From: Spirosoma montaniterrae
GTDB lineage: Bacteria > Bacteroidota > Bacteroidia > Cytophagales > Spirosomataceae
Assembly (NCBI RefSeq): GCF_001988955.1
Contig: NZ_CP014263.1
Location: 372,001-436,000, forward strand
Length of the DNA: 64,000 nucleotides
Reading direction: 5' to 3'
Shown piece by piece: positions 5,069 through 39,268 of the stretch. Within the stretch, counting starts at the first letter, position 1. Each line of letters starts with the position of its first letter. Below the pieces are notes generated by a model. That model was given only the letters and a program-made list of their open reading frames with translations, was not told where the DNA came from and searched no databases. Position numbers and translations under genes: made by a program.

Positions 5069-6049
5069 ATGGCAAACCAATTTTCAACCAAACGTTGGGC
5101 AGCCGCGCTGCTGCTGATCCTTGTGATCGGCAGCAGCCAGGTCCGGGCACAGCAAGACAAGATGTTCTCGCAGTACATGTTCAACATGATGGCTCTCAAC
5201 CCGGCCTATGCCGGTAGCCGTGACGTGCTGAGCATGACGGCCCTCTACCGAAATCAGTGGACCGGCGTGCCGGGTGCTCCACAAACGGCGACCTTCACGA
5301 TGGACATGCCCCTGAACCGGGAGCGGGTTGGCGTCGGTCTTCAACTGTACGGTGATCGCTATGGCGAGATGCAGGAAGCCGGGGCGTTTGCGTCCTACGC
5401 CTTCCGCATCAAAGTTGGGCAGCGCACCACGCTGGCTCTCGGCTTGCAGGCAGGCGCATCGAGCTACAACGCAAACCTGACGAACGTGCAACTATCACCC
5501 GATGGGTTGCCGTCGAACGATCCGGCTTTTGCCGTGAACATCAGCAAGGTGCTCCCCAACTTCGGAACGGGTATCTACCTGAGCAACGACCGGTCGTACT
5601 TCAGTATCTCGGTGCCACGCCTGATCAAAAACAAGCTGAGCGAGTATAATGTGGGCGGTTTGCGCTCCGTACAGGCCCGGCACGCGTTTTTGGCGGCTGG
5701 CTTCGTGGTGGGAATCAGTCCTGTGGTAAAGATGAAGCCTTCGATGCTCCTCAAATATGCTGAAGGTGCCCCGATGGGCTTCGACGGGAACATCAACTTC
5801 TGGTTTGCCGACCGCATCGCTCTTGGTGCATCGGTACGCCGGAATCAGTTCTCGACCTGGACCGACTACACGACCGATGCTATCGTGGGTATGGTAGAAG
5901 TGCAACTAACCGATCAGTTTCGGTTTGGTTACGCCTACGACCACACCATGAACAAGCTCCGGTCAATTGCACCAAGTTCGCACGAGATTATGCTGCGCTA
6001 TGAGTTTGGCTTCGGCAAAAACCGTATCCTGACACCGCGCTATTTCTAA
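5069..6049 (+). CDS. PorP/SprF family type IX secretion outer-membrane protein (first copy)
   Basis: This 326-residue protein has a signal peptide ending in a VRAQQ-like cleavage region, then the family hallmark QYMFNMMALNPAYAGS, and a run of amphipathic beta strands ending in an aromatic residue (RYF), as expected for an outer-membrane barrel. PorP/SprF proteins serve secretion and surface anchoring of cargo with type B C-terminal domains. It starts 5 bp after the CHU_C-domain adhesin, so the two are almost certainly co-transcribed partners, like sprB-sprF. A long perfect inverted repeat begins at its stop codon. Confidence 0.9.
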   Translation: MANQFSTKRWAAALLLILVIGSSQVRAQQDKMFSQYMFNMMALNPAYAGSRDVLSMTALYRNQWTGVPGAPQTATFTMDMPLNRERVGVGLQLYGDRYGEMQEAGAFASYAFRIKVGQRTTLALGLQAGASSYNANLTNVQLSPDGLPSNDPAFAVNISKVLPNFGTGIYLSNDRSYFSISVPRLIKNKLSEYNVGGLRSVQARHAFLAAGFVVGISPVVKMKPSMLLKYAEGAPMGFDGNINFWFADRIALGASVRRNQFSTWTDYTTDAIVGMVEVQLTDQFRFGYAYDHTMNKLRSIAPSSHEIMLRYEFGFGKNRILTPRYF

Positions 6050-6136
6050 GTTAAAAGTGAAAAGTGCATAGTGAAAAATGAAACACAGCGGTAGGTACGC
6101 TACTCATTTTTCACTATGCACTTTTCACTTTTAACT
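6049..6136. repeat. 33-bp perfect inverted repeat at a stop codon (GTTAAAAGTG family)
   Basis: The arms 6049-6081 and 6104-6136 are exact reverse complements around a 22-base loop. The left arm begins at the last base of the PorP/SprF stop codon. The arms are built from AGTGAAAA/GTTAAAAGTG motifs shared with the inverted repeat at 24471-24545, which also begins at a stop codon. It could act as a terminator or mRNA 3' stabiliser, but the two related copies suggest a dispersed palindromic element. Confidence 0.85.
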
Positions 6137-8612: not shown

Positions 8613-8705
8613 GTTTAAACGCAGAGGGCGTAGAGTATTGCGCAGAGTTCGCAGAGTTTTACTCGGTGTTCTCTGCGCGACTCGCTGCGTCCTCTGCGTT
8701 TAAAC
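8613..8705. repeat. Inverted repeat of the AAACGCAGAG family
   Basis: Outer arms 8613-8627 and 8691-8705 are perfect 15-base reverse complements, with further imperfect pairing of CGCAGAG/CTCTGCG motifs inside. It fills the gap between the PorE-like and second PorP/SprF genes. The same motifs recur at 25669-25736 and 34728-34812, so it is a dispersed palindromic family. Confidence 0.8.
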
Positions 8706-15506: not shown

Positions 15507-15531
15507 CGGGTAAATTTCGACCCACTGAGTT

Positions 15532-15624
15532 GTTCGGGACTTATGTCCCGAACGCATTAACAGCGGACGTTTGTCCGCGTATAAAACTTGTTTGGCTAAG
15601 GCGGACAAACGTCCGCTGTTAATG
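15532..15624. repeat. Palindromic repeat pair (GTTCGGGAC hairpin plus 24-bp inverted repeat)
   Basis: GTTCGGGAC-TTAT-GTCCCGAAC occupies 15532-15553. Next, 15555-15578 and 15601-15624 are exact 24-base reverse complements carrying GCGGACGTTTGTCCGC. The first hairpin recurs exactly at 20301-20322 and 20390-20411, where it also flanks GCGGA...TCCGC hairpins. This is therefore a composite dispersed element. Confidence 0.85.
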
Positions 15625-15657
15625 TGGTCAGGATAAATATCCTGACCAGCCTTTTTT
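15625..15657 (+). terminator. Intrinsic terminator after the ABC exporter
   Basis: TGGTCAGGATA (15625-15635) pairs with TATCCTGACCA (15638-15648), with only two unpaired bases at the tip, followed by a C and a T run (15651-15656). Well placed to end the ABC exporter transcript before the convergent esterase gene. Confidence 0.65.
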
Positions 15658-20288: not shown

Positions 20289-20300
20289 TGATATGTAGCT

Positions 20301-20411
20301 GTTCGGGACTTATGTCCCGAACCTATTAGCTGCGGATATTCATCCGCCAACTAACTATCTGAAGGCGGACGAATGTCCGCTTTTAGTTTGTTCGGGACTT
20401 ATGTCCCGAAC
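20301..20411. repeat. Composite palindromic element bounded by GTTCGGGAC hairpins
   Basis: The hairpin GTTCGGGAC-TTAT-GTCCCGAAC occurs at 20301-20322 and exactly again at 20390-20411. Between them GCGGATATTCATCCGC (20332-20347) and GCGGACGAATGTCCGC (20365-20380) pair imperfectly with each other. The right hairpin overlaps the end of kynA and supplies its last codons and TAA stop. It is homologous to 15532-15624. Confidence 0.85.
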
Positions 20412-21322
20412 AGCCGACCCCAGTTTTCTCGCTCTTGCAAAGACCAGAGCGTTGGAAAAAATATGCGCTGTTGCTGAACGGGTGGGAGGTAGGTTTGCCA
20501 GTTGGTGCCGCCCGTAGCCCGAACAGCATCTGGTTCTTTCTGCAAATACTGCACCGCCGACCGCAGATGCGCCAGTTTCCAGCGGACGTTTACCCGGTGG
20601 TCGTATTCGCGCAGGGCGTCGCGGAGGTCGTTGGTAGCTTGTCCGTCCTGTTCCAGTTCCTGAAAACGCCGGTTAAGATTTGTGGTCTGGTAGTTCTCGG
20701 CCAACCGAACGAGCGATGCGCCATACTGCTTATCGAACTGCCGCAGGGTCAGCGTTTTTTGCTGCGTAGCCAGTTCAGTGGCTCCGCGTTTCCAGTAGAT
20801 ATAGTCGTATTGGTCGGCAAGGGTATTTGCATTGTCGGCTGGTTCGGTGAGCAGGTTCTGAAAATCGGTCGAGACGATTTCGATTTGCCGGAACTGCACC
20901 GATTGAAAGCCGCTCGATGGCAGCAACGCCATTCTGAAGTTCAGAAACTGCTCGCGTTCCATGCCGGTAATCATGACCCCGAACGAGTCTTCGAGCAGGC
21001 CGAAGTAGCGGTTGATGCGCTGCATTCGGGCCGTGAAAAACGCACTGGTGAGTGGTTGGGTTTGGGCAATCTGCGCGATTTCGTGCAGAATGAGCTTGAA
21101 GTATAACTCGGTGATCTGGTGGTAGGTAACGAAAATCAGTTCGTCAGGGTAGGCCGTTTTTGGGTTTTGGAGCGACAGTAGCGTATCGAGGTGGATATAG
21201 TCCCAGTAGGTCAGGTAATCGGCCTGGAGCAGTCCTTCGAGATACGAGGCCATATCCTGCCCCATCGCGGCAAATTTCTGTTCTAACTGGTTAAGTTTAT
21301 CGGTCAGTGTTTCGGACATCAT
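20399..21322 (-). CDS. kynA: Tryptophan 2,3-dioxygenase family protein
   Basis: The 307-residue protein begins with the TDO pattern 'LTYWDYIHLDTLLSLQ' and 'LIFVTYHQITELYFKLILHE', in which the His is the distal-pocket residue, and has the C-terminal TGGTNWQTYLPP region typical of the haem enzyme. TDO opens the indole ring of L-tryptophan to N-formylkynurenine, in the cytoplasm. The start overlaps the stop of the upstream restriction-enzyme fragment (ATGATG/TGA). The last residues and stop come from a dispersed hairpin, so the C-terminus may have been altered by the repeat. No other kynurenine-pathway gene is near. Confidence 0.85.
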   Translation of the reverse strand: MMSETLTDKLNQLEQKFAAMGQDMASYLEGLLQADYLTYWDYIHLDTLLSLQNPKTAYPDELIFVTYHQITELYFKLILHEIAQIAQTQPLTSAFFTARMQRINRYFGLLEDSFGVMITGMEREQFLNFRMALLPSSGFQSVQFRQIEIVSTDFQNLLTEPADNANTLADQYDYIYWKRGATELATQQKTLTLRQFDKQYGASLVRLAENYQTTNLNRRFQELEQDGQATNDLRDALREYDHRVNVRWKLAHLRSAVQYLQKEPDAVRATGGTNWQTYLPPVQQQRIFFPTLWSLQERENWGRLFGT

Positions 21323-23766: not shown

Positions 23767-24471
23767 ATGAACATCGAAGATAAAGTCATCATTATTTCGG
23801 GGGCTTCGCGCGGAATTGGCCGGGCAACGGCCCTGCTACTGGCCCGGAATGGCGCACACGTAGTAGTCACGGCCCGCTCGGCAGAAGACCTCAAAAAGCT
23901 CGAAACCGAACATGCTAACATCGTCGGCGTAGCGGGCGATGTTGCCAACGAAGCCGATATGCAGGCCGTCGTACAAACCGCGCTCGACCGTTTCGGACGT
24001 ATCGACGTGGTGATTAACAATGCGGGTTACGGCATCTTCAAGAACGTAGACGACATCACGGTGGACGAGTGGGATGCTATCATGGCAACCAATGTGAAAG
24101 GTACGTTTCTGCTCACTAAAGCCGCCTTGCCCACGCTAAAAGCGCAGGGTTCGGGACATGTGGTGGTGGTAGCCTCCGACGTAGCGAAGCGGACGTTTGC
24201 GGGAGGCTCGCTCTATACGGCCAGTAAATACGCGCAGGAAGCCTTCATGGGCGCACTGCGGAAAGAAGTTCGTCCGTTCGGTATCAAGGTGACGGGCGTG
24301 TATTCGGGTTTGGTCGATTCGCATTTCCACGAGAAAGGACACGGCCACGAAACCTCCAAAAACTGGCTCAAAAACGAAGACATGGCCGAGTCGATGCTGT
24401 TCATCATCAGCCGCCCCGCCCACGTGGTGATTGATGAATTTATGGTCCACCCGCTGGAGCAGGAGTATTAA
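23767..24471 (+). CDS. Short-chain dehydrogenase/reductase
   Basis: ATG 23767 gives 234 residues. The Rossmann dinucleotide site SGASRGIGRA, the NNAGYG motif and the catalytic Tyr/Lys in YTASKYA define a classical SDR using NAD(P)H. It resembles FabG-like 3-oxoacyl reductases but the substrate is not defined by sequence. The stop codon is immediately followed by a 32-bp perfect inverted repeat and then the convergent aldo/keto reductase. Confidence 0.9.
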   Translation: MNIEDKVIIISGASRGIGRATALLLARNGAHVVVTARSAEDLKKLETEHANIVGVAGDVANEADMQAVVQTALDRFGRIDVVINNAGYGIFKNVDDITVDEWDAIMATNVKGTFLLTKAALPTLKAQGSGHVVVVASDVAKRTFAGGSLYTASKYAQEAFMGALRKEVRPFGIKVTGVYSGLVDSHFHEKGHGHETSKNWLKNEDMAESMLFIISRPAHVVIDEFMVHPLEQEY

Positions 24472-24545
24472 GTTAAAAGTGAAAAATGAAGAGTGAAAAA
24501 TGCTGCCGGAAGACATTTTTCACTCTTCATTTTTCACTTTTAACT
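24471..24545. repeat. 32-bp perfect inverted repeat at a stop codon (GTTAAAAGTG family)
   Basis: Arms 24471-24502 and 24514-24545 are exact reverse complements with an 11-base loop. They contain GTTAAAAGTGAAAAATG motifs shared with 6049-6136, and as there the left arm starts at the last base of a TAA stop. The repeat sits between two convergent genes. Confidence 0.85.
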
Positions 24546-25736: not shown

Positions 25737-25752
25737 CATGGAATCATCTCTG

Positions 25753-25855
25753 GCCTATTGCTGACGCGAGGGAGACGCAAAGGGTTGCGTCTCTACGCCG
25801 GATGGTTAACTGTAGAGACGCAACCCTTTGCGTCTCCCTCGCGTCAGCAATAGGC
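25753..25855. repeat. Perfect 44-bp palindrome, off-site copy of the RAYT-associated REP
   Basis: Arms 25753-25796 and 25812-25855 are exact reverse complements with a 15-base loop. The inner arm contains GTAGAGACGC...GCGTCTC, the core of the REP hairpins flanking the RAYT gene at 38386-39262, with ACCCTT-like tips. The loop carries CCGGATGGTT, the same word as the 17-bp tandem units there. This looks like a non-autonomous copy. Confidence 0.85.
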
Positions 25856-25887
25856 TACAATTAATTCAACAGGGTACTGAATAAAAA

Positions 25888-33172: not shown

Positions 33173-33892
33173 TTAGGCCAGTTTATTGCCTACCATACGG
33201 TCATACACGTCGTCGAAATCGGCGTTTCTGCTCTGCCGGTAATGGTCGGCATGGTAGCGGTCGAGCTTATCCAGAATGTGAACCAGCAAGGCTTTTTCGC
33301 CATCGGTGAGCGAACTATAAGCCACGTCGGCCACGCGGTCCATAACCGGAAATGCCCGCTGGATACCGGCCAGACCTTGTTCTGTAATGCGCAGTCGCTT
33401 AGAACGCCGGTCGTGTTCATCCGGAAATTCTTCCACGTAACCCATAGCCATCAGCCGATTAATTACGTCGATGCCCGATGCAAATTCGGCCATCATTTCG
33501 TAGATCAGCTCACTCTTTTTAGGCGTTCCCATCTGCACCAGTACAATCAGGTACACGGGGTCATCGATGCTCCTGAAGTCGAGCGGCTGCATCGCCTTTT
33601 TCGAGTACAGATAAGCGTACTTCGCCATGCGACCAACCAGCGCACCCAGCCGGGCTTCTGGCCGAATAGCAATCAACGATTTATTCGCTTTCCCAGTCAG
33701 GCTTTCTACCCACTGCTCGTCGCGCAGGCCGTTTTCTTCCGTAACGGGGTGGTGGTGTTCTGACGGAACCACCTGTGTATGTTCAGTTAAATAGTGCAGG
33801 CAAAACCCCGCCACATCGGCCTCGGTCCGGGCTTCGCTGTAGGTTGCCCACGCATTTACAAGTTCGATAAGTCGTCTCTCTCCCTGATCCAT
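33173..33892 (-). CDS. MarR family winged-helix regulator
   Basis: The 239-residue protein is longer than typical MarR (~140-160): an N-terminal ~90-residue helical part, then the winged HTH 'MGTPKKSELIYEMMAEFASGIDVINRLMAMGYVEEFPDEHDRRSKRLRITEQG', in which DRRSKR...TEQG is the MarR wing signature. It heads the minus-strand efflux operon and diverges from the ABC efflux operon. A perfect inverted repeat at 33975-33996 in the shared intergenic space is the likely operator for both sides. Confidence 0.88.
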   Translation of the reverse strand: MDQGERRLIELVNAWATYSEARTEADVAGFCLHYLTEHTQVVPSEHHHPVTEENGLRDEQWVESLTGKANKSLIAIRPEARLGALVGRMAKYAYLYSKKAMQPLDFRSIDDPVYLIVLVQMGTPKKSELIYEMMAEFASGIDVINRLMAMGYVEEFPDEHDRRSKRLRITEQGLAGIQRAFPVMDRVADVAYSSLTDGEKALLVHILDKLDRYHADHYRQSRNADFDDVYDRMVGNKLA

Positions 33893-34021: not shown

Positions 34022-34705
34022 ATGATTGCGGAATTAAAATCAGCCGGTAAAGAGTACAAAACCGGCGATCAGACTATTGTGGCATTACAACCAACTACGC
34101 TGCAATTAAACGAGGGTGAGTTGCTACTCATCATCGGGCCGTCGGGGTCGGGTAAAACTACCCTTCTGTCGTTGTTGGGCTGTGTTATTTATCCAAGCTA
34201 TGGCGACTTGTGGGTCGATGGCGCACACGTTAACAAGCTGAAAGAAACGGCCTTAGCCAAACTCCGGCTCAATACCATCGGGTTTGTATTCCAGAATTTC
34301 AATTTGCTGGCTCCGCTCACTGCCGAGGAAAACGTGATGATGCCCCTGCAACTACAGGGTGTTGGCGGCTCCGAAGCCCGCGACCGCACCGAACAGGCCC
34401 TGAGAACGGTTGGCATGACCGACCGGCGCAGGAACCTGCCCAAACAACTGTCGGGCGGTCAGCAGCAGCGCATCGCCATTGCCCGCGCCTTAGTCACCAA
34501 CCCCAAACTCGTGCTCTGCGACGAACCTACGGCATCGCTCGACAAAGATTCGCTCGGTATTGTGATGCACGAACTACGCAATCTGGCCGACGGCGGCAAA
34601 TCCGTCGCCGTGGTCACGCACGACCCGCGCCTGAAGCAGTACGCCCACCGGATTGTGGAGGTGGATAATGGAATGGTAAAAGAAGTGTCAACTTTTAACG
34701 AATAA
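34022..34705 (+). CDS. ABC transporter ATP-binding protein (MacB/LolD-like)
   Basis: ATG 34022 gives 227 residues. All nucleotide-binding motifs are present: Walker A GPSGSGKTTLL, Q-loop FQNFNLL, signature LSGGQQQRIAIARAL, Walker B LVLCDEPTASLD and H-loop VVTHD. It is of the LolD/MacB class that powers mechanotransmission rather than transport through the membrane. Its TAA overlaps the next ATG (TAATG). With the HlyD adaptor, FtsX permease and TolC gene it forms a tripartite efflux pump, probably repressed by the divergent MarR. Confidence 0.92.
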   Translation: MIAELKSAGKEYKTGDQTIVALQPTTLQLNEGELLLIIGPSGSGKTTLLSLLGCVIYPSYGDLWVDGAHVNKLKETALAKLRLNTIGFVFQNFNLLAPLTAEENVMMPLQLQGVGGSEARDRTEQALRTVGMTDRRRNLPKQLSGGQQQRIAIARALVTNPKLVLCDEPTASLDKDSLGIVMHELRNLADGGKSVAVVTHDPRLKQYAHRIVEVDNGMVKEVSTFNE

Positions 34706-35733
34706 TGCTGATGAAACCTGTTCCCTTAAACGCAGAGAGAAGAGAGGAATGCGCAGAGTGCGCCGAGCTTTTCTTTGCGCCCTCTGCGAAAATCTCCTTT
34801 CTCTCTGCGTTTATTATACTTCTATTAACATCCTGTTCCAGCAAAGAGTCCAAACCCGCCGAACAGCAGGATAGCGTCCGCACGGTGCAAACGCCGAAGC
34901 GCATCGATGAAGTAGTGGGTATTGCTGTGATTGAACCGGCGGCCCGCATCAGTCAGCTATCTGCCGAAACGGGCGGATTGGTCAAACGTATCAGTGTCAA
35001 TATTGGCGATCAGGTGAAAAAAGGGCAGGTTGTCCTGACGATGGACAACGCTGTTGAAACGGCCCAGCTTCGGCAGGCGAACGTAAAGATCAGCACCCAG
35101 CAGGACGCCATCGAAACGGCCCGGCAAAACGTACAGACACTGCGCGTACAACTCCAGAAAGCCGAAGCCGACCTCAAACGCAACCAAACGCTATTTACTG
35201 GAAATGCCCTGACCAGGAAGGAGTTAGATGATTCGCAGTACCAGGTCACGAACCTGCAACAGCAAATTCGGGCGTCGGAAGCGCAGGTGCGGCAGGCCGA
35301 GAGCCAGATTGGTTCGCTACGTGCCGACATTCAGTATGCCAACACGGTAGCGGGTCTGAAAACGGTGAAGGCTCCCGACAACGGTACGCTGTTGAGCCTC
35401 GACGCCAAAGTAGGGCAGTTTCTGACCAGTAACCAGTCTATCGGTGATTTCGCCCCCGCCGGGCCGCTTGTGGCCGTCACGGAAATTGACGAACTGTTTG
35501 CGCTCCGGGTGAAAGTCGGTCAGAAAGCCTACGTTCGGCCACAAGGTAGCGACGAACGCCTGACGACCGGTACGGTAGTGCTGACCTCGCCTTATCTCCG
35601 CAAAAAATCGCTCTTTTCCGACAACGCGGCCAACCTCGAAGACCGGCGCGTTCGCGAAGTGCGGGTACAGTTAGACGACCCCGGCAAGGTTATCATCGGG
35701 GCAAGGGTAGAGTGTGTGATCTCTGTCAACTAA
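34705..35733 (+). CDS. HlyD/RND-type efflux adaptor lipoprotein with repeat-derived signal region
   Basis: The 342-residue protein has a lipobox LLLTSC at Cys44, a lipoyl/barrel-sandwich segment (ISVNIGDQVKKGQVVLTMDN), a coiled-coil hairpin rich in Gln, Ala and Arg (~115-215), the second lipoyl half (VKAPDNGTLLSLDAKVGQ) and beta-barrel domains. It is the periplasmic adaptor between FtsX and TolC. Residues 9-36 are encoded by a palindromic repeat (34728-34812) in frame. Removing them would leave MLMKPVPL joined to IILLLTSC, an ordinary lipoprotein signal. The start at 34705 or 34711 is unchanged by this. Whether the long, partly acidic n-region is still exported is unknown. Confidence 0.85.
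   Translation: MLMKPVPLNAERREECAECAELFFAPSAKISFLSAFIILLLTSCSSKESKPAEQQDSVRTVQTPKRIDEVVGIAVIEPAARISQLSAETGGLVKRISVNIGDQVKKGQVVLTMDNAVETAQLRQANVKISTQQDAIETARQNVQTLRVQLQKAEADLKRNQTLFTGNALTRKELDDSQYQVTNLQQQIRASEAQVRQAESQIGSLRADIQYANTVAGLKTVKAPDNGTLLSLDAKVGQFLTSNQSIGDFAPAGPLVAVTEIDELFALRVKVGQKAYVRPQGSDERLTTGTVVLTSPYLRKKSLFSDNAANLEDRRVREVRVQLDDPGKVIIGARVECVISVN
34728..34812. repeat. AAACGCAGAG-family palindrome inside a signal-peptide coding region
   Basis: Arms AAACGCAGAGAGAAG-like (34728-34742) and its complement (34798-34812) bound an 85-base element with further internal CGCAGAG/CTCTGCG pairing. The coding part 34729-34812 is 84 bases, 28 whole codons, and has no stop in the HlyD frame. It belongs with the elements at 8613-8705 and 25669-25736. 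Confidence 0.8.
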
Positions 35734-35741
35734 ATAGTTAT

Positions 35742-35845
35742 GACACAGAGATACGCGGAGGAACACGGAGATACACAGAGAAAATGTTTGCTTTCCTGAA
35801 GAATACCTCTGTGTATCTCCGTGTTCCTCCGTGCAGCTCTGTGTC
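35742..35845. repeat. 39-bp near-perfect inverted repeat between HlyD and FtsX genes
   Basis: Arms 35742-35780 and 35807-35845 match as reverse complements at 36 of 39 positions around a 26-base loop. Motifs are ACACAGAGATAC and CGGAGGAACACGG. It fills the intercistronic space and ends 10 bases before the FtsX ATG, so it must fold in the leader of that gene. Confidence 0.85.
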
Positions 35846-35855
35846 CCCAAAAATC

Positions 35856-36980
35856 ATGCTACGAACAGCTTTCAAATTCATCCGCTACGACAAGGCAAAG
35901 TCCTTCGGGGCGTTGGCGGGCATTGTAATCTCGGTGTTCCTGGTGGGGCAGCAGGCGGGTATTTTTATCTTCCTGACCGACGCCATGCGGAGCATTGTCG
36001 ACAATAACAGAGGCTACATCTGGGTCACGGACGAAACCACTACCAACGCCAATCAGCTTAGCCTGCTCGATGTCAGGAAGGGCAACGAAATTGCGTCGCT
36101 GCCGGGTGTGGAGCGGGTGTATCCGGTGGTGATAGCCGGTGCCGGAGCCAAGTTTGCCAACGGCGAAACGGGCGGATTTTCGCTCATCGGATCGCAGGCA
36201 CCCAACTTTGTGGGTGGCCCGTGGCGGCTCTATACGGCCAAACCGCAGGACATGCTGCCCGATGGTGCGCTCATCACCGATTTTTACGATGCAAAAGCTC
36301 TCGGCGGACTAAAACCCGGCGACTATTTTGAGGTGAACGGCAAGAAAGTCTATAACGCCGGGCTAACACGTGGGGCGCGGAGTTTCGGCGGGGGACTGCT
36401 GGCTTTCACGACCATCGAACGTGCCCGCTACTTAGCCAATGTACCAACCAATAAAGTGAGCTTTTATTTGGTGAAACCGAAACCGGGCGTAGCCGAATCG
36501 AAGGTGATCCAGGTCATCAACCGGAGCATCAATGGCGTGCGGGCCTGGAACGCGCAGGAACTGTCGACCACCACCGTCAAAACCGTACTGGCGACCAATG
36601 GCATTGCCGCATCGTTCGGGAGTTTGATTGGGTTCGCGATCATTTCAGGGCTGGTTATCATCGGGTTAACGCTCTATTCAGCCGCCATCGACCGCATCAA
36701 AGACTACGGCACGTTAAAAGCTATCGGGGCCACCAACGGCTACGTCAGTCGCCTGATTATGACTCAGGCTCTGCTGTTTGCCATTGTGGGGTACACGGTT
36801 GGCCGGTTTATGGTCGAGGGCTTTCGACTTGGTATTGCCGAGTCGGGCACCCTGTTTTACTTCCCGGTCTGGTTCGAGTACGCGCTGTTTGTGGTTACGC
36901 TGGTGATCTCGCTGGGCGGCAGCGTATTTGCCATTCGTCGGATTATTTCATTAGAACCGGCTTCGGTATTTAGGGGATAA
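35856..36980 (+). CDS. FtsX/MacB-like ABC transporter permease
   Basis: ATG 35856 gives 374 residues; the in-frame sequence upstream runs through the palindrome and is not protein-like. There is one N-terminal transmembrane helix (GALAGIVISVFLVGQQAGIFIFL), a ~220-residue extracytoplasmic domain, and three C-terminal helices around 'GLVIIGLTLYSAAIDRIKDYGTLKAIGATNGYVSRLIMTQALLF', the FtsX signature with the coupling helix. It is the membrane subunit partnering the ATPase at 34022 and the HlyD adaptor. The upstream palindrome may affect its translation. Confidence 0.88.
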   Translation: MLRTAFKFIRYDKAKSFGALAGIVISVFLVGQQAGIFIFLTDAMRSIVDNNRGYIWVTDETTTNANQLSLLDVRKGNEIASLPGVERVYPVVIAGAGAKFANGETGGFSLIGSQAPNFVGGPWRLYTAKPQDMLPDGALITDFYDAKALGGLKPGDYFEVNGKKVYNAGLTRGARSFGGGLLAFTTIERARYLANVPTNKVSFYLVKPKPGVAESKVIQVINRSINGVRAWNAQELSTTTVKTVLATNGIAASFGSLIGFAIISGLVIIGLTLYSAAIDRIKDYGTLKAIGATNGYVSRLIMTQALLFAIVGYTVGRFMVEGFRLGIAESGTLFYFPVWFEYALFVVTLVISLGGSVFAIRRIISLEPASVFRG

Positions 36981-36984
36981 AATC

Positions 36985-37155
36985 ATTGAATGATTGACTG
37001 GTTGAATGATTGAGTGTGATAGCAGGGCATCATGCTTCCAGTTGATTAATCGCAAATAGCCATGAAAAAGATAGGTGTTCAGATTGCACTGATGATGTTA
37101 TTTAATCACTCATTCAGTCAATCATTCAATCCTTCAGTTAGTCAATCATTCAATC
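36985..37155. repeat. Inverted repeat spanning FtsX-TolC junction, right arm coding
   Basis: ATTGAATGATTGACTG (36985-37000) is an exact reverse complement of 37115-37130; a second partial copy of the right arm lies at 37141-37155. The words ATCATTCAATC and GTCAATCATTC recur. The right part lies inside the TolC frame (residues ~14-31) and the left part just after the FtsX stop. Confidence 0.8.
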
Positions 37156-38389
37156 GTCTTACCCTCCCGCAGGCGTTGCAACAGGCGCAATCGAACCGGC
37201 TGGAGTTGACAAATCAGCAACTGCAAACGCAGATTACGGAAAGCGATGAAACCCGCCGACGTGCCCGCTGGCAACCGCAGGTGAACGCCGGAGCTGATTT
37301 TCGCTGGAATACGCAAATTCAGCGAAACATTATCAGGGGGGGCTTTACCGGCACCGGCACCGATCAGGTGCTGCAATTTGGTACGCCCGTCAACAACGTG
37401 CTGAACGTGCAGGCCGAACAAAAAGTCTACGACGCGCAGAGCCGCATCGACCGGCGCATCAACCGGTTGAACGTTGACAATCAACAAGCTACGCTCGAAA
37501 AGCTGAAAGTCGATGTGCGACAGCAGGTAACGGAAGCGTATTATCAGGCCGTGTTCAACCGCGAAAAACAGCGGCTGTCGGAGCAGGCAAAAATGCGGGC
37601 GCAAAGCTACCTCGAACAGGCACAAACCCGACTACAGGCCGGAACACTGCTCAAAACCGACCTCGACCGCTTCGCCCTCGACCTGAGCAATGCCGACCTG
37701 ACCCTCCGAAACGATCAGCGCGACTATGCGCTGAGTCTCGATAACCTGCGCTACCGCATCAACAGTCCGCAGGCTGTTGAACCCGCCGATTCGCTGGGGC
37801 GTTGATTGCGCAGTTTCAGGCGCAGGAACTGGCTACGGGCGAACGCATCGAACTGCGGCAGGAGGAACTAAGCCGACAGGTGAATGAATTGAATCAACGG
37901 CGCGAACAGGCTCGGCTGGCTCCGGTCATAACGGCCTATGGTGCGTATTTCGCCCAGCAGTTTGCCGATACGTTCAACCCATTCCAGAGCGGCACCTGGT
38001 TTCCGTACAACTACGTCGGTCTGCGGCTGAACGTACCGATTTTCGACGGTCGGCAAACCCGGCTCAATCGTCAGGATTATGTACGCCGGGTGCAGATCAA
38101 CCAGAATACCATTCAAAGGCTCCGCAACGATTTTGACTACGAAAGTCGGGCGGCCCGCAACACGCTGGATCAGGCCCGCGAAAACCTGATTGAAACGCAG
38201 AAAAACATTGTTCAGGCACAGCAGATTCTGGCTGTTGACCGCGTTCGGTTCGATGCCGGTACGCTCGTTCTGGCCGACTTTCGCAATAGCGAATACGCGC
38301 TGCAACAAGCTGAAAACAATTATCTCCGCGCCATTTACGACGTGCTGTTAGGACAGTTGCAGGTACGGCGGGCGTTGGGAACCCTGTAG
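37062..38389 (+). pseudogene. TolC family outer-membrane efflux protein, interrupted by a frameshift
   Basis: Two frames, 37062-37805 (247 residues) and 37802-38389 (195), together make one TolC protein of normal length. The first has a signal peptide, LTLPQALQQAQSNRLEL and coiled-coil helices; the second has VGLRLNVPIFDGRQT and 'YESRAARNTLDQARENL', the second TolC repeat. At the join the first frame stops after DSLGR, whereas adding one G to GGGG at 37796-37799 gives a continuous DSLGALIAQFQ reading. So a single-base loss in a G run is the cause, either real, phase-variable or a sequencing error. The signal peptide is partly repeat-encoded (residues 14-31 read FNHSFSQSFNPSVSQSFN). Confidence 0.85.
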
Positions 38390-38540
38390 AGACGCGAAGG
38401 GTCGCGTCTCAGGAACCGGATGGTATGGTTGGGTTTACCAAATGGGTTTCGCCTGCCGGATGGTTTCGCCTACCAGATGGTTTTACCTGCCGGATGGGTT
38501 TACCTGCCGGATGAGGAGACGCGAAGGGTCGCGTCTCTAC
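38386..38540. repeat. REP block left of RAYT: paired hairpins and 17-bp tandem units
   Basis: Hairpins GAGACGCG-AAGGGT-CGCGTCTC lie at 38389-38410 and 38516-38537. Between them, 17-bp units of the GGTTTCGCCTGCCGGAT type repeat four times at 38445-38512 after a degenerate unit near 38428. The first hairpin supplies the TolC TAG stop (38387-38389). Confidence 0.85.
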
Positions 38541-38586: not shown

Positions 38587-39129
38587 ATGAGCCAGAAGCG
38601 ATTTGCGGATCAGTATCGAATAGAATCTACGCGGTTGGCGGAATACGATTATGGGTCAAATGGAATGTACTTCATCACCATTTGCACGAAAAATCGTGAA
38701 TGCCGTTTTGGTGAAATCATAACCGATTCAAATGGGGAATGGTTTCTCCAACCAACACCCATTGGGCAGCGTGTGCTGGAAGGCTGGCACGCCATCTCTC
38801 ACTATCAACCGTATGTTTTGCTGGATGTCTTTCAGCTTATGCCCAATCATTTGCACGGTGTTCTGTGGATATGTAAGGACAACTATGAGGGTTGGCAACC
38901 GAACGTGTTTGGACCTCAACGGCAAAACCTGGCTTCCATTGTCCGAGGATTTAAATCTGGCGTGAAGACGTTTGCGACAACTAATGGTCTCGTCTTCGAT
39001 TGGCAACCCCGCTATTATGACCGGGTCATTCGCAATATCGACGAACTGAACCGAATACGACAATACATAGATGCAAACCCTTACAATTGGTATAAAGATC
39101 AGGATAATAGCGAGAATCTATATATGTAG
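38587..39129 (+). CDS. REP-associated tyrosine transposase (RAYT, IS200-like Y1 family)
   Basis: ATG 38587 gives 180 residues. The Y1 HuH motif is seen as 'LMPNHLHGVLW'; the C-terminal RAYT signature is 'YYDRVIRNIDELNRIRQYIDANPYNW' with the catalytic Tyr and helix. The N-terminal 'YFITICTKNRECRFGEI' strand is also typical. RAYTs cut single-stranded DNA at REP sequences and disperse them. Its TAG stop (39127-39129) lies inside the right-hand GTAGAGACGCG hairpin. The flanking GAGACGCG hairpins are the probable substrate. Confidence 0.92.
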   Translation: MSQKRFADQYRIESTRLAEYDYGSNGMYFITICTKNRECRFGEIITDSNGEWFLQPTPIGQRVLEGWHAISHYQPYVLLDVFQLMPNHLHGVLWICKDNYEGWQPNVFGPQRQNLASIVRGFKSGVKTFATTNGLVFDWQPRYYDRVIRNIDELNRIRQYIDANPYNWYKDQDNSENLYM

Positions 39130-39262
39130 AGACGCGACCCTTCGCGTCTCAGGCACCGGCAGGCAGAATCATCCGGCAGGCAGAATCATCCGGCGGGGAG
39201 AACCATCTGGTAGGCAAGACCATACCATCCGGTTCCTGAGACGCGAAGGGTCGCGTCTCTAC
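39126..39262. repeat. REP block right of RAYT
   Basis: Hairpins GAGACGCG-ACCCTT-CGCGTCTC at 39129-39150 and GAGACGCG-AAGGGT-CGCGTCTC at 39238-39259 flank four 17-bp units (39154-39221) such as ATCCGGCAGGCAGAATC, which are the reverse complement type of the left block's units. It supplies the RAYT stop codon. Confidence 0.85.
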
Positions 39263-39268
39263 AGGTGG

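Follow-up and report, generated by a model that had tools for sequence, protein, structure and literature searches.

Four palindromes at the gene junctions of a Spirosoma efflux operon are probably separate insertions of three kinds of element

The window analysed here is a 64,000-nucleotide (nt) stretch of the genome of Spirosoma montaniterrae (NZ_CP014263.1; a single contig of 5.80 Mb) and contains an efflux operon with the gene order ABC ATPase, HlyD-type adaptor lipoprotein, FtsX/MacB-like permease and TolC-type protein. At each of the four boundaries downstream of the ATPase we identified one inverted repeat, four in all, which we refer to as F1 to F4. These palindromes probably represent four separate insertions of three kinds: F4 a REPIN (paired repetitive extragenic palindromic sequences, REPs) spread by a REP-associated tyrosine transposase (RAYT), F1 and F2 elements linked to genes of the GxxExxY family, and F3 an element linked to S23/IVP genes. 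This assignment builds on direct observations, namely the palindromes themselves, the families to which they belong, their presence or absence in relatives and the association of the families with carrier genes. The operon and its palindromes are as follows (window coordinates):

34022–34705, + strand: ABC transporter ATPase that opens the operon (PF00005, E 4e-34; start set by eye)
34705–35733, + strand: HlyD-type periplasmic adaptor with a lipoprotein signal peptide, LLTSC (PF16576 and PF13437; lipobox by eye)
34727–34813, no strand: F1 palindrome of 87 nt with TAAACGCAGAG arms (37 nt, 81%), an open frame within the HlyD signal peptide; GxxExxY-linked family
35742–35845, no strand: F2 palindrome with GACACAGAG arms (39 nt, 92%), HlyD stop to FtsX start; GxxExxY-linked family
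35856–36980, + strand: FtsX/MacB-like permease (PF02687; MacB_PCD under its cut-off; start from alignment to relatives)
36975–37164, no strand: F3 palindrome with ATTGAATG 8-mer arms (42 nt, 79%), TolC ATG in the loop; S23-linked family
37062–37805, + strand: TolC-type outer membrane protein, reading frame 1, up to a frameshift (PF02321)
37802–38389, + strand: TolC-type outer membrane protein, reading frame 2, past the frameshift (PF02321; stop TAG inside the F4 REPIN)
38386–38540, no strand: F4 REPIN made of two REPs that have GTAG feet and face each other (38386 +, 38540 −; arms 40 nt, 75%)

The first-pass annotation of this DNA had placed a palindrome at each of the HlyD, FtsX, TolC and post-TolC boundaries, and this was borne out: the ungapped arm scores of the F1, F2, F3 and F4 junctions were matched by 0, 0, 0 and 1 of 100 dinucleotide shuffles, respectively, with RNA folding z-scores of −7.0, −10.5, −2.8 and −2.5. 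The coordinates also agree with its description of one palindrome as wholly coding, one as partly coding, one as lying in a leader and one at a stop. F1 is contained entirely within the HlyD/MFP signal peptide. F2 is placed after the HlyD stop and before the FtsX ATG (35856), the point from which the FtsX proteins of relatives align; an open frame from a GTG at 35712 also crosses it. In F3, the leader contains the 5' arm; TolC codons run through the 3' arm, from the last part of the signal peptide into the start of the mature protein. F4 starts inside the TolC stop codon (the TAG of GTAGAGACGC).

The orthologous operon was compared in 12 species, comprising the host and the 11 relatives with at least 79% FtsX identity out of 69 loci; the close relatives by FtsX belong to Larkinella, Fibrella, Rudanella, Spirosoma and Arsenicibacter, together with one Flavobacterium. 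The 87-nt F1 copy in HlyD was found in one of the 12 species, and all 11 relatives lacked a significant palindrome at this position. HlyD signal peptides are short in the relatives, for example in L. punicea, where the stretch between Met and the lipobox Cys measures 16 residues versus 42 in the host (from the second Met; by eye). The ATPase-HlyD spacing without a palindrome is 126 nt in Rudanella and 115 nt in SUN052, near the 134 nt of the host; therefore, insertion at this boundary is argued from the signal-peptide codons rather than from spacing. At the HlyD-FtsX junction, five of the 12 species have palindromes (0 of 100 shuffles reach the score), and these represent four families: F2 in the host and a divergent F2 in the relative at locus L143, with other families in Fibrella, S. 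telluris and Rudanella. The gap at this junction measures 125 nt in the host and 5 (SUN052), 25, 26, 26, 39, 72 and 76 nt in the seven species without a palindrome. At the FtsX-TolC junction palindromes occur in seven of the 12 species, six with F3-like arms and Rudanella with an F4-like REPIN; those of SUN052 and two Larkinella have z-scores of only ~2, though no shuffle reached their score. Across the three intra-operon junctions, 23 of the 36 species-junctions have no significant palindrome and several others have unrelated ones.

Post-TolC hairpins of the relatives may be ordinary terminators and were left out of these counts. A second palindrome in the SUN052 HlyD signal peptide, real by eye, scored zero in the ungapped test and was not counted, and neither were the weaker TolC arms of S. 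telluris, whose score was reached by 16 of 100 shuffles. Because the protein tree was weakly supported at several nodes, insertion events were counted only as the four families at one junction. As judged from these alignments, the comparison supports repeated insertion at intergenic and signal-peptide positions of the operon. The first-pass annotation had proposed as much; relatives without the elements or with unrelated palindromes favour this proposal, whereas the ATPase-HlyD spacing does not discriminate.

All four families proved to be dispersed when the host genome was searched for each of them. The searches returned 57 match rows for F1 and at least 88, 201 and 70 for F2, F3 and F4; the rows represent strands and pieces rather than sites, and the last three values are lower bounds as 40 first-look candidates were scored. 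From 30 loci fetched per family we read 79 distinct palindromes (18 F1, 17 F2, 22 F3 and 22 F4), leaving out duplicates and loci without a palindrome by test. Arms open with TTTAAACGCAGAG in F1, GACACAGAG in F2 and TTGAATGA in F3. A purine-rich 5' arm is shared by 18 of 18 F1, 17 of 17 F2 and 22 of 22 F3 palindromes but by only 12 of 22 F4, and from the 5' to the 3' arm the proportion of charged residues changes from 42 to 15% (F1), 38 to 5% (F2), 30 to 1% (F3) and 33 to 24% (F4). Mean hydropathy changes from −1.64 to 0.60 in F1 and from −1.63 to 1.31 in F2. Open frames numbered 26 of 54 in F1, 18 of 51 in F2, 0 of 66 in F3 and 19 of 66 in F4, which fits F1 being read through in HlyD and F3 being only half coding. 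In six species (the host, SUN052, Fibrella and three Larkinella), the loop contains the TolC start codon, and the end or the hydrophobic part of the signal peptide is encoded by the 3' arm. Rfam matches to the F2 hairpin were microRNA models far under their cut-offs and were taken as chance hairpin matches.

The placement of the copies was analysed with a simple open reading frame (ORF) caller. By this approach, 15 of the 79 palindromes overlap an ORF by at least 20 nt, and 32 of the 57 F1-F3 sites are flanked by genes that run in the same direction. At such co-directional sites the upstream stop is a median of 4, 5 and −3 nt away for F1, F2 and F3 versus 60 nt for F4, and the next ATG 15, 16 and 14 nt versus 46 nt; element-free co-directional gaps of the loci examined have a median of 60 (n = 51). 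Stops were seen in or against the arms of F1-F3, in the order stop, element, ATG. Filling tight operon junctions is a habit of the F1-F3 families and not special to the efflux operon. F1 arms also fit their own partner better than the arms of other copies (0.898 versus 0.798, p 5e-5; outer 30 nt, 19 copies), which means either that pairing matters, with hairpin DNA or RNA as a substrate, or that the arms template each other. The window contains a further F1 palindrome at 8613–8705.

F4 is a REPIN adjoining its RAYT gene, an already known kind. It has GTAG at the hairpin foot, with heads at 38386 (+), 38540 (−), 39126 (+) and 39262 (−) in inverted pairs, and the adjacent gene is recognised as encoding an HUH tyrosine transposase by its HLH and YIDANP motifs, its profile score being under the cut-off (NF047646, 38 bits against 80). 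The RAYT protein has no Pfam match and a weak similarity to TnpArep in PDB 4er8 (E 0.039). The two features that complete this unit are:

38587–39129, + strand: RAYT/TnpAREP (HLH at residue 88, YIDANP at residue 160)
39125–39263, no strand: second F4 REPIN (39126 +, 39262 −) with GTAG heads, closing a REPtron-like unit

Three Y1_Tnp genes elsewhere in the host genome are also near palindromes. Another F4-type REPIN, with arms of 56 nt, lies at 25741–25867 of the window, and a REPIN of ~149 nt is read in frame within a cysteine-desulfurase-like ORF, named by eye (locus L070, genome C1 near 1273819–1273967).

The F1 and F2 families are associated with a different gene. The host genome encodes four GxxExxY proteins (PF13366; the two that were scanned are TIGR04256), and all four genes are located between inverted arms. 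The arms of one locus (L128) are F1 and those of another (L130) are F2; the other two loci have different arm families. At L128 the gene lies between argD-like and argF-like genes (by eye), with one arm coding for the argD C-terminus and the argF ATG ~5 nt past the other. Across Bacteroidota, significant inverted arms were identified at 26 of 33 GxxExxY loci (the four host loci plus the best matches with a locus given) and at 0 of 66 mock genes, and 21 of the 26 arm-positive loci contain a CRCRRAG unit. We then searched 198 Bacteroidota genomes, 101 of which have PF13366, for the pair pattern CRCAGAGN{2,4}CRCAGAG, with a threshold of at least three pairs per genome. This threshold is reached by 32 of the 101 genomes with GxxExxY and by 0 of the 97 without, such that all 32 rich genomes carry the gene; the corresponding values are 31 of 97 versus 0 of 58 without the gene-poor family f16, and 23 of 61 versus 0 of 42 by genus. 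Palindromes apart from the GxxExxY gene were found at 9 of 11 sites taken in one genome (G333) and at 2 of 5 in another (G295). Outside the genome set, arms were present at five of nine loci, from a viral-collection contig (L360), Bacteroides, Gemmatirosa, Sphingomonas and Bernardetia; Gemmatimonadota and Pseudomonadota are represented by a single record each. The gene from the Sphingomonas parapaucimobilis record (L363) has CGCGAAG arms and lies between fabD and fabG.

Judged by their arms, F1 and F2 are assigned as gene-less relatives of an element with a GxxExxY gene between CRCAGAG-unit arms. The first-pass annotation had given each junction a different family; there are indeed four families, although F1 and F2 share the CRCAGAG unit and the carrier gene family and so form two lineages of one kind. 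Alignment of 16 sequences chosen from the 33 GxxExxY loci revealed invariant residues E27, D67, E77, K79, Q91 and Y95, which we take to be the active site typical of the PD-(D/E)XK superfamily; the assignment to this superfamily is that of the Pfam family PF13366 (PDDEXK_3). GxxExxY had no sequence match among PDB structures and no match in PHROGs, and scans of viral contigs with single proteins found neither GxxExxY nor RAYT. A single-sequence structure model of one GxxExxY protein was unusable (mean pLDDT 42). Weak PADLOC matches (best E 5e-4) were taken as general nuclease similarity. The orientation of GxxExxY neighbours showed no clear difference from control triplets.

The association of F3 with S23 is less firm than that of F1 and F2 with GxxExxY, and the assignment of F3 to this kind remains correspondingly tentative. 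The host genome has four S23/IVP genes, three of which pass the formal arm test. The best non-self F3 match lies ~65 nt before the S23 gene L034, where a 24-nt, 83% F3-like arm pair failed the formal test (z 2.3). Phylum-wide, significant inverted arms were found at 22 of 34 S23 loci, the host four included, versus 0 of 68 mock genes; pooled with those for GxxExxY, the mock controls had arms in 0 of 134 cases. S23 arm motifs vary between lineages, so the CRCAGAG-type co-occurrence analysis covers GxxExxY alone. Perfect palindromes of 32–33 nt, AGTTAAAAGTGAAAA..., occur in the window at 6049–6136 and 24471–24545, and their arms are of the type flanking the S23 gene L032.

Two other features of the window were observed. 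Another palindrome family, GTTCGGGACTTATGTCCCGAAC, is present at 15531–15648 and 20298–20414, and a gene for a winged-helix (HTH_27) regulator at 33173–33892 is divergent from the efflux operon.

Based on these results, we propose the following mechanism. F4, a REPIN, would have been spread by the adjoining RAYT gene, and F3 would be the gene-less counterpart of an element associated with a gene for an S23/IVP four-helix-bundle protein. The carrier proteins, GxxExxY or S23, would act on the folded arms and move short copies, which would thereby spread in trans. Elements of the F1-F3 kinds would settle in short intra-operon gaps, beside the upstream stop and just before the next ATG. Copies that break genes would be removed by selection; what remains would be copies in narrow gaps within operons and copies with arms that can serve as codons for signal peptides or C-termini, so that tolerance would be the reason for the positions observed; the hairpins may also act in mRNA. 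A purine-rich, charged 5' arm followed by a pyrimidine-rich 3' arm of low charge, more hydrophobic in F1 and F2, is probably what makes an element absorbable into a signal peptide. A broader proposal, which we would back and doubt in equal measure, is that GxxExxY nucleases mobilise a so far undescribed family of palindromic elements that occurs in at least three phyla and is characterised by CRCRRAG-unit arms, insertion between cistrons, gene-less hairpin copies and arms lent to host C-termini and signal peptides.

Several observations weigh against this interpretation. Movement was not observed, and for the four palindromes neither an exact boundary of insertion nor a target-site duplication could be fixed. 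The 3' arms of F3 are not more hydrophobic than its 5' arms (mean −0.19 versus −0.05), clear signal-peptide cases among the sites read in the host genome number only two (HlyD with F1 and TolC with F3), and within-copy arm pairing in F2 is weakly above chance (0.856 versus 0.829, p 0.03; 15 copies). The arm test failed at 7 of 33 GxxExxY and 12 of 34 S23 loci, including the F3-tied L034, and the CRCRRAG unit is missing from 5 of the 26 passing GxxExxY loci. A backward control pattern reaches three pairs in 2 of the 198 genomes, PF13366 matched 3 of 14 control genomes, and CRCAGAG-pair sites are palindromic in just 3 of 15 cases in G168 and 5 of 9 in G248, whose sites, retained in the counts, are often at contig ends and may be part of a longer repeat. 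Arms were not found at four of the nine outside GxxExxY loci (Fusobacteria, Treponema, Persicobacter and Prevotella), and high scores were also obtained for the Gemmatirosa mock controls (z 3.3 and 6.8), as gene-less copies are found around the GxxExxY gene there. Finally, in 30 argD-argF loci read out of 148 genomes with argF, GxxExxY occupies the junction in 12, the host included, and not in 18, a split that by itself favours the interpretation. Of these 12 copies, 10 fall in one clade (support 0.917), two contain stops and others are truncated; the element at this junction appears to have been inserted long ago and lost repeatedly, and to be decaying rather than mobile. Three loci where no GxxExxY was found (L371, L373 and L385) have arm-like argD ends, CLKTE..., which are likely scars of a lost element.

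The first alternative to be weighed is that selection keeps the palindromes as host RNA hairpins whose function is to set subunit ratios by way of RNase III processing. Three of the four do lie between genes of one operon, they fold more strongly than shuffles, and the better fit of F1 arms within than between copies is as expected under a pairing constraint; RNase III cleavage is also on record, in the available parts of the respective papers, for Correia elements (PMC10969869) and for S23-carrying intervening sequences (IVS; PMC4990558). However, arm-to-arm templating in replication would likewise keep arms matched, the same families occur at unrelated genes, and the 23 palindrome-free species-junctions, with unrelated palindromes at several others, speak against such a role. 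We regard this explanation as improbable. That the operon is decaying and hence gathers insertions, which would make the cluster uninformative about tolerated positions, is unlikely in our judgement. It would account for the TolC gene (37062–38389), which is broken into two frames near a G-run at ~37800 in the host and kept in a single frame in 11 of 11 relatives. The break may be a sequencing error or decay, its location in the G-run allowing the former. Against decay, ATPase, HlyD and FtsX retain open frames with 70–93% identity to those of relatives, and L143 and Rudanella, which neighbour the host in the weakly supported protein tree, have a one-frame TolC and carry palindromes as well.

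A third explanation concerns the agent rather than the insertion: GxxExxY and S23 genes could be passengers attracted or tolerated by the arms, with another host system, such as replication slippage or homologous recombination, making the copies. The host genome has four GxxExxY genes, whereas the F1 and F2 palindromes read in it number at least 35; the carriers stay in place across genera and decay, and the fit of arms to their partners is what template switching would produce. Set against this, each sampled CRCAGAG-rich genome (32 of 32) has GxxExxY, and the predicted nuclease retains its active-site residues across the aligned loci. We consider the passenger role possible but doubtful, and favour mobilisation of short copies by the carrier proteins.

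No role for GxxExxY genes was found in the literature searched, and searches for the repeats gave nothing on point by title or abstract; the available passage of PMC8934634 on GxxExxY/PF13366 does not deal with repeats. A link to a dispersed family of hairpins would give a testable function to a gene present in half of the Bacteroidota genomes sampled (101 of 198). It would name GxxExxY as a likely driver of a class of repeats that shape operon junctions, mRNA leaders and signal peptides. That signal peptides can absorb arms may have a testable explanation in the order of the arms, a purine arm followed by a pyrimidine arm whichever strand is read.

Comparison with known systems places F4 within the REPtron type. 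As described in the available parts of PMC3733652 and PMC6006769, where GTAG REPs with RAYTs are on record, it shares the GTAG foot, the hairpin, the inverted pair and the RAYT between two REPINs. The available part of PMC3733652 gives GTAG repeats for other phyla and only CGTC for Bacteroidetes, whereas F4 is a GTAG repeat in a Bacteroidota host; that of PMC6006769 includes Bacteroidetes RAYT subclasses. F1-F3 differ from REPs and REPINs in having no GTAG feet; no RAYT was found tied to them, and the genes between such arms are GxxExxY or S23. In-frame palindromes inside protein genes are known as Rickettsia palindromic elements (in the portion of PMC10969869 available), and F1 and the 3' arm of F3 are similarly read in frame, whereas most copies read here are at gene junctions and few are read through. 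F1 and F2 resemble prokaryotic miniature inverted-repeat transposable elements (MITEs, e.g., Correia elements), which are short, non-autonomous and have longer relatives that carry genes, in their terminal inverted repeats, many copies and longer gene-carrying relative. No MITE-type target-site duplication was found, and the linked genes encode a predicted PD-(D/E)XK nuclease and a four-helix-bundle protein rather than known transposases. The closest counterpart of the S23-linked kind is the IVS of Coxiella 23S rRNA, which according to the available part of PMC4990558 is 428 nt long, has a 28-bp stem cut by RNase III and carries an S23 ORF. S23 loci as a class share with it the protein family and the placement of the ORF between inverted repeats, a likeness of architecture. 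The rRNA IVS resides in 23S rRNA, whereas the S23-kind elements described here are scattered between protein-coding genes and include copies that lack the gene, among them presumably the F3 of the window, which lies between protein genes and not in 23S rRNA.

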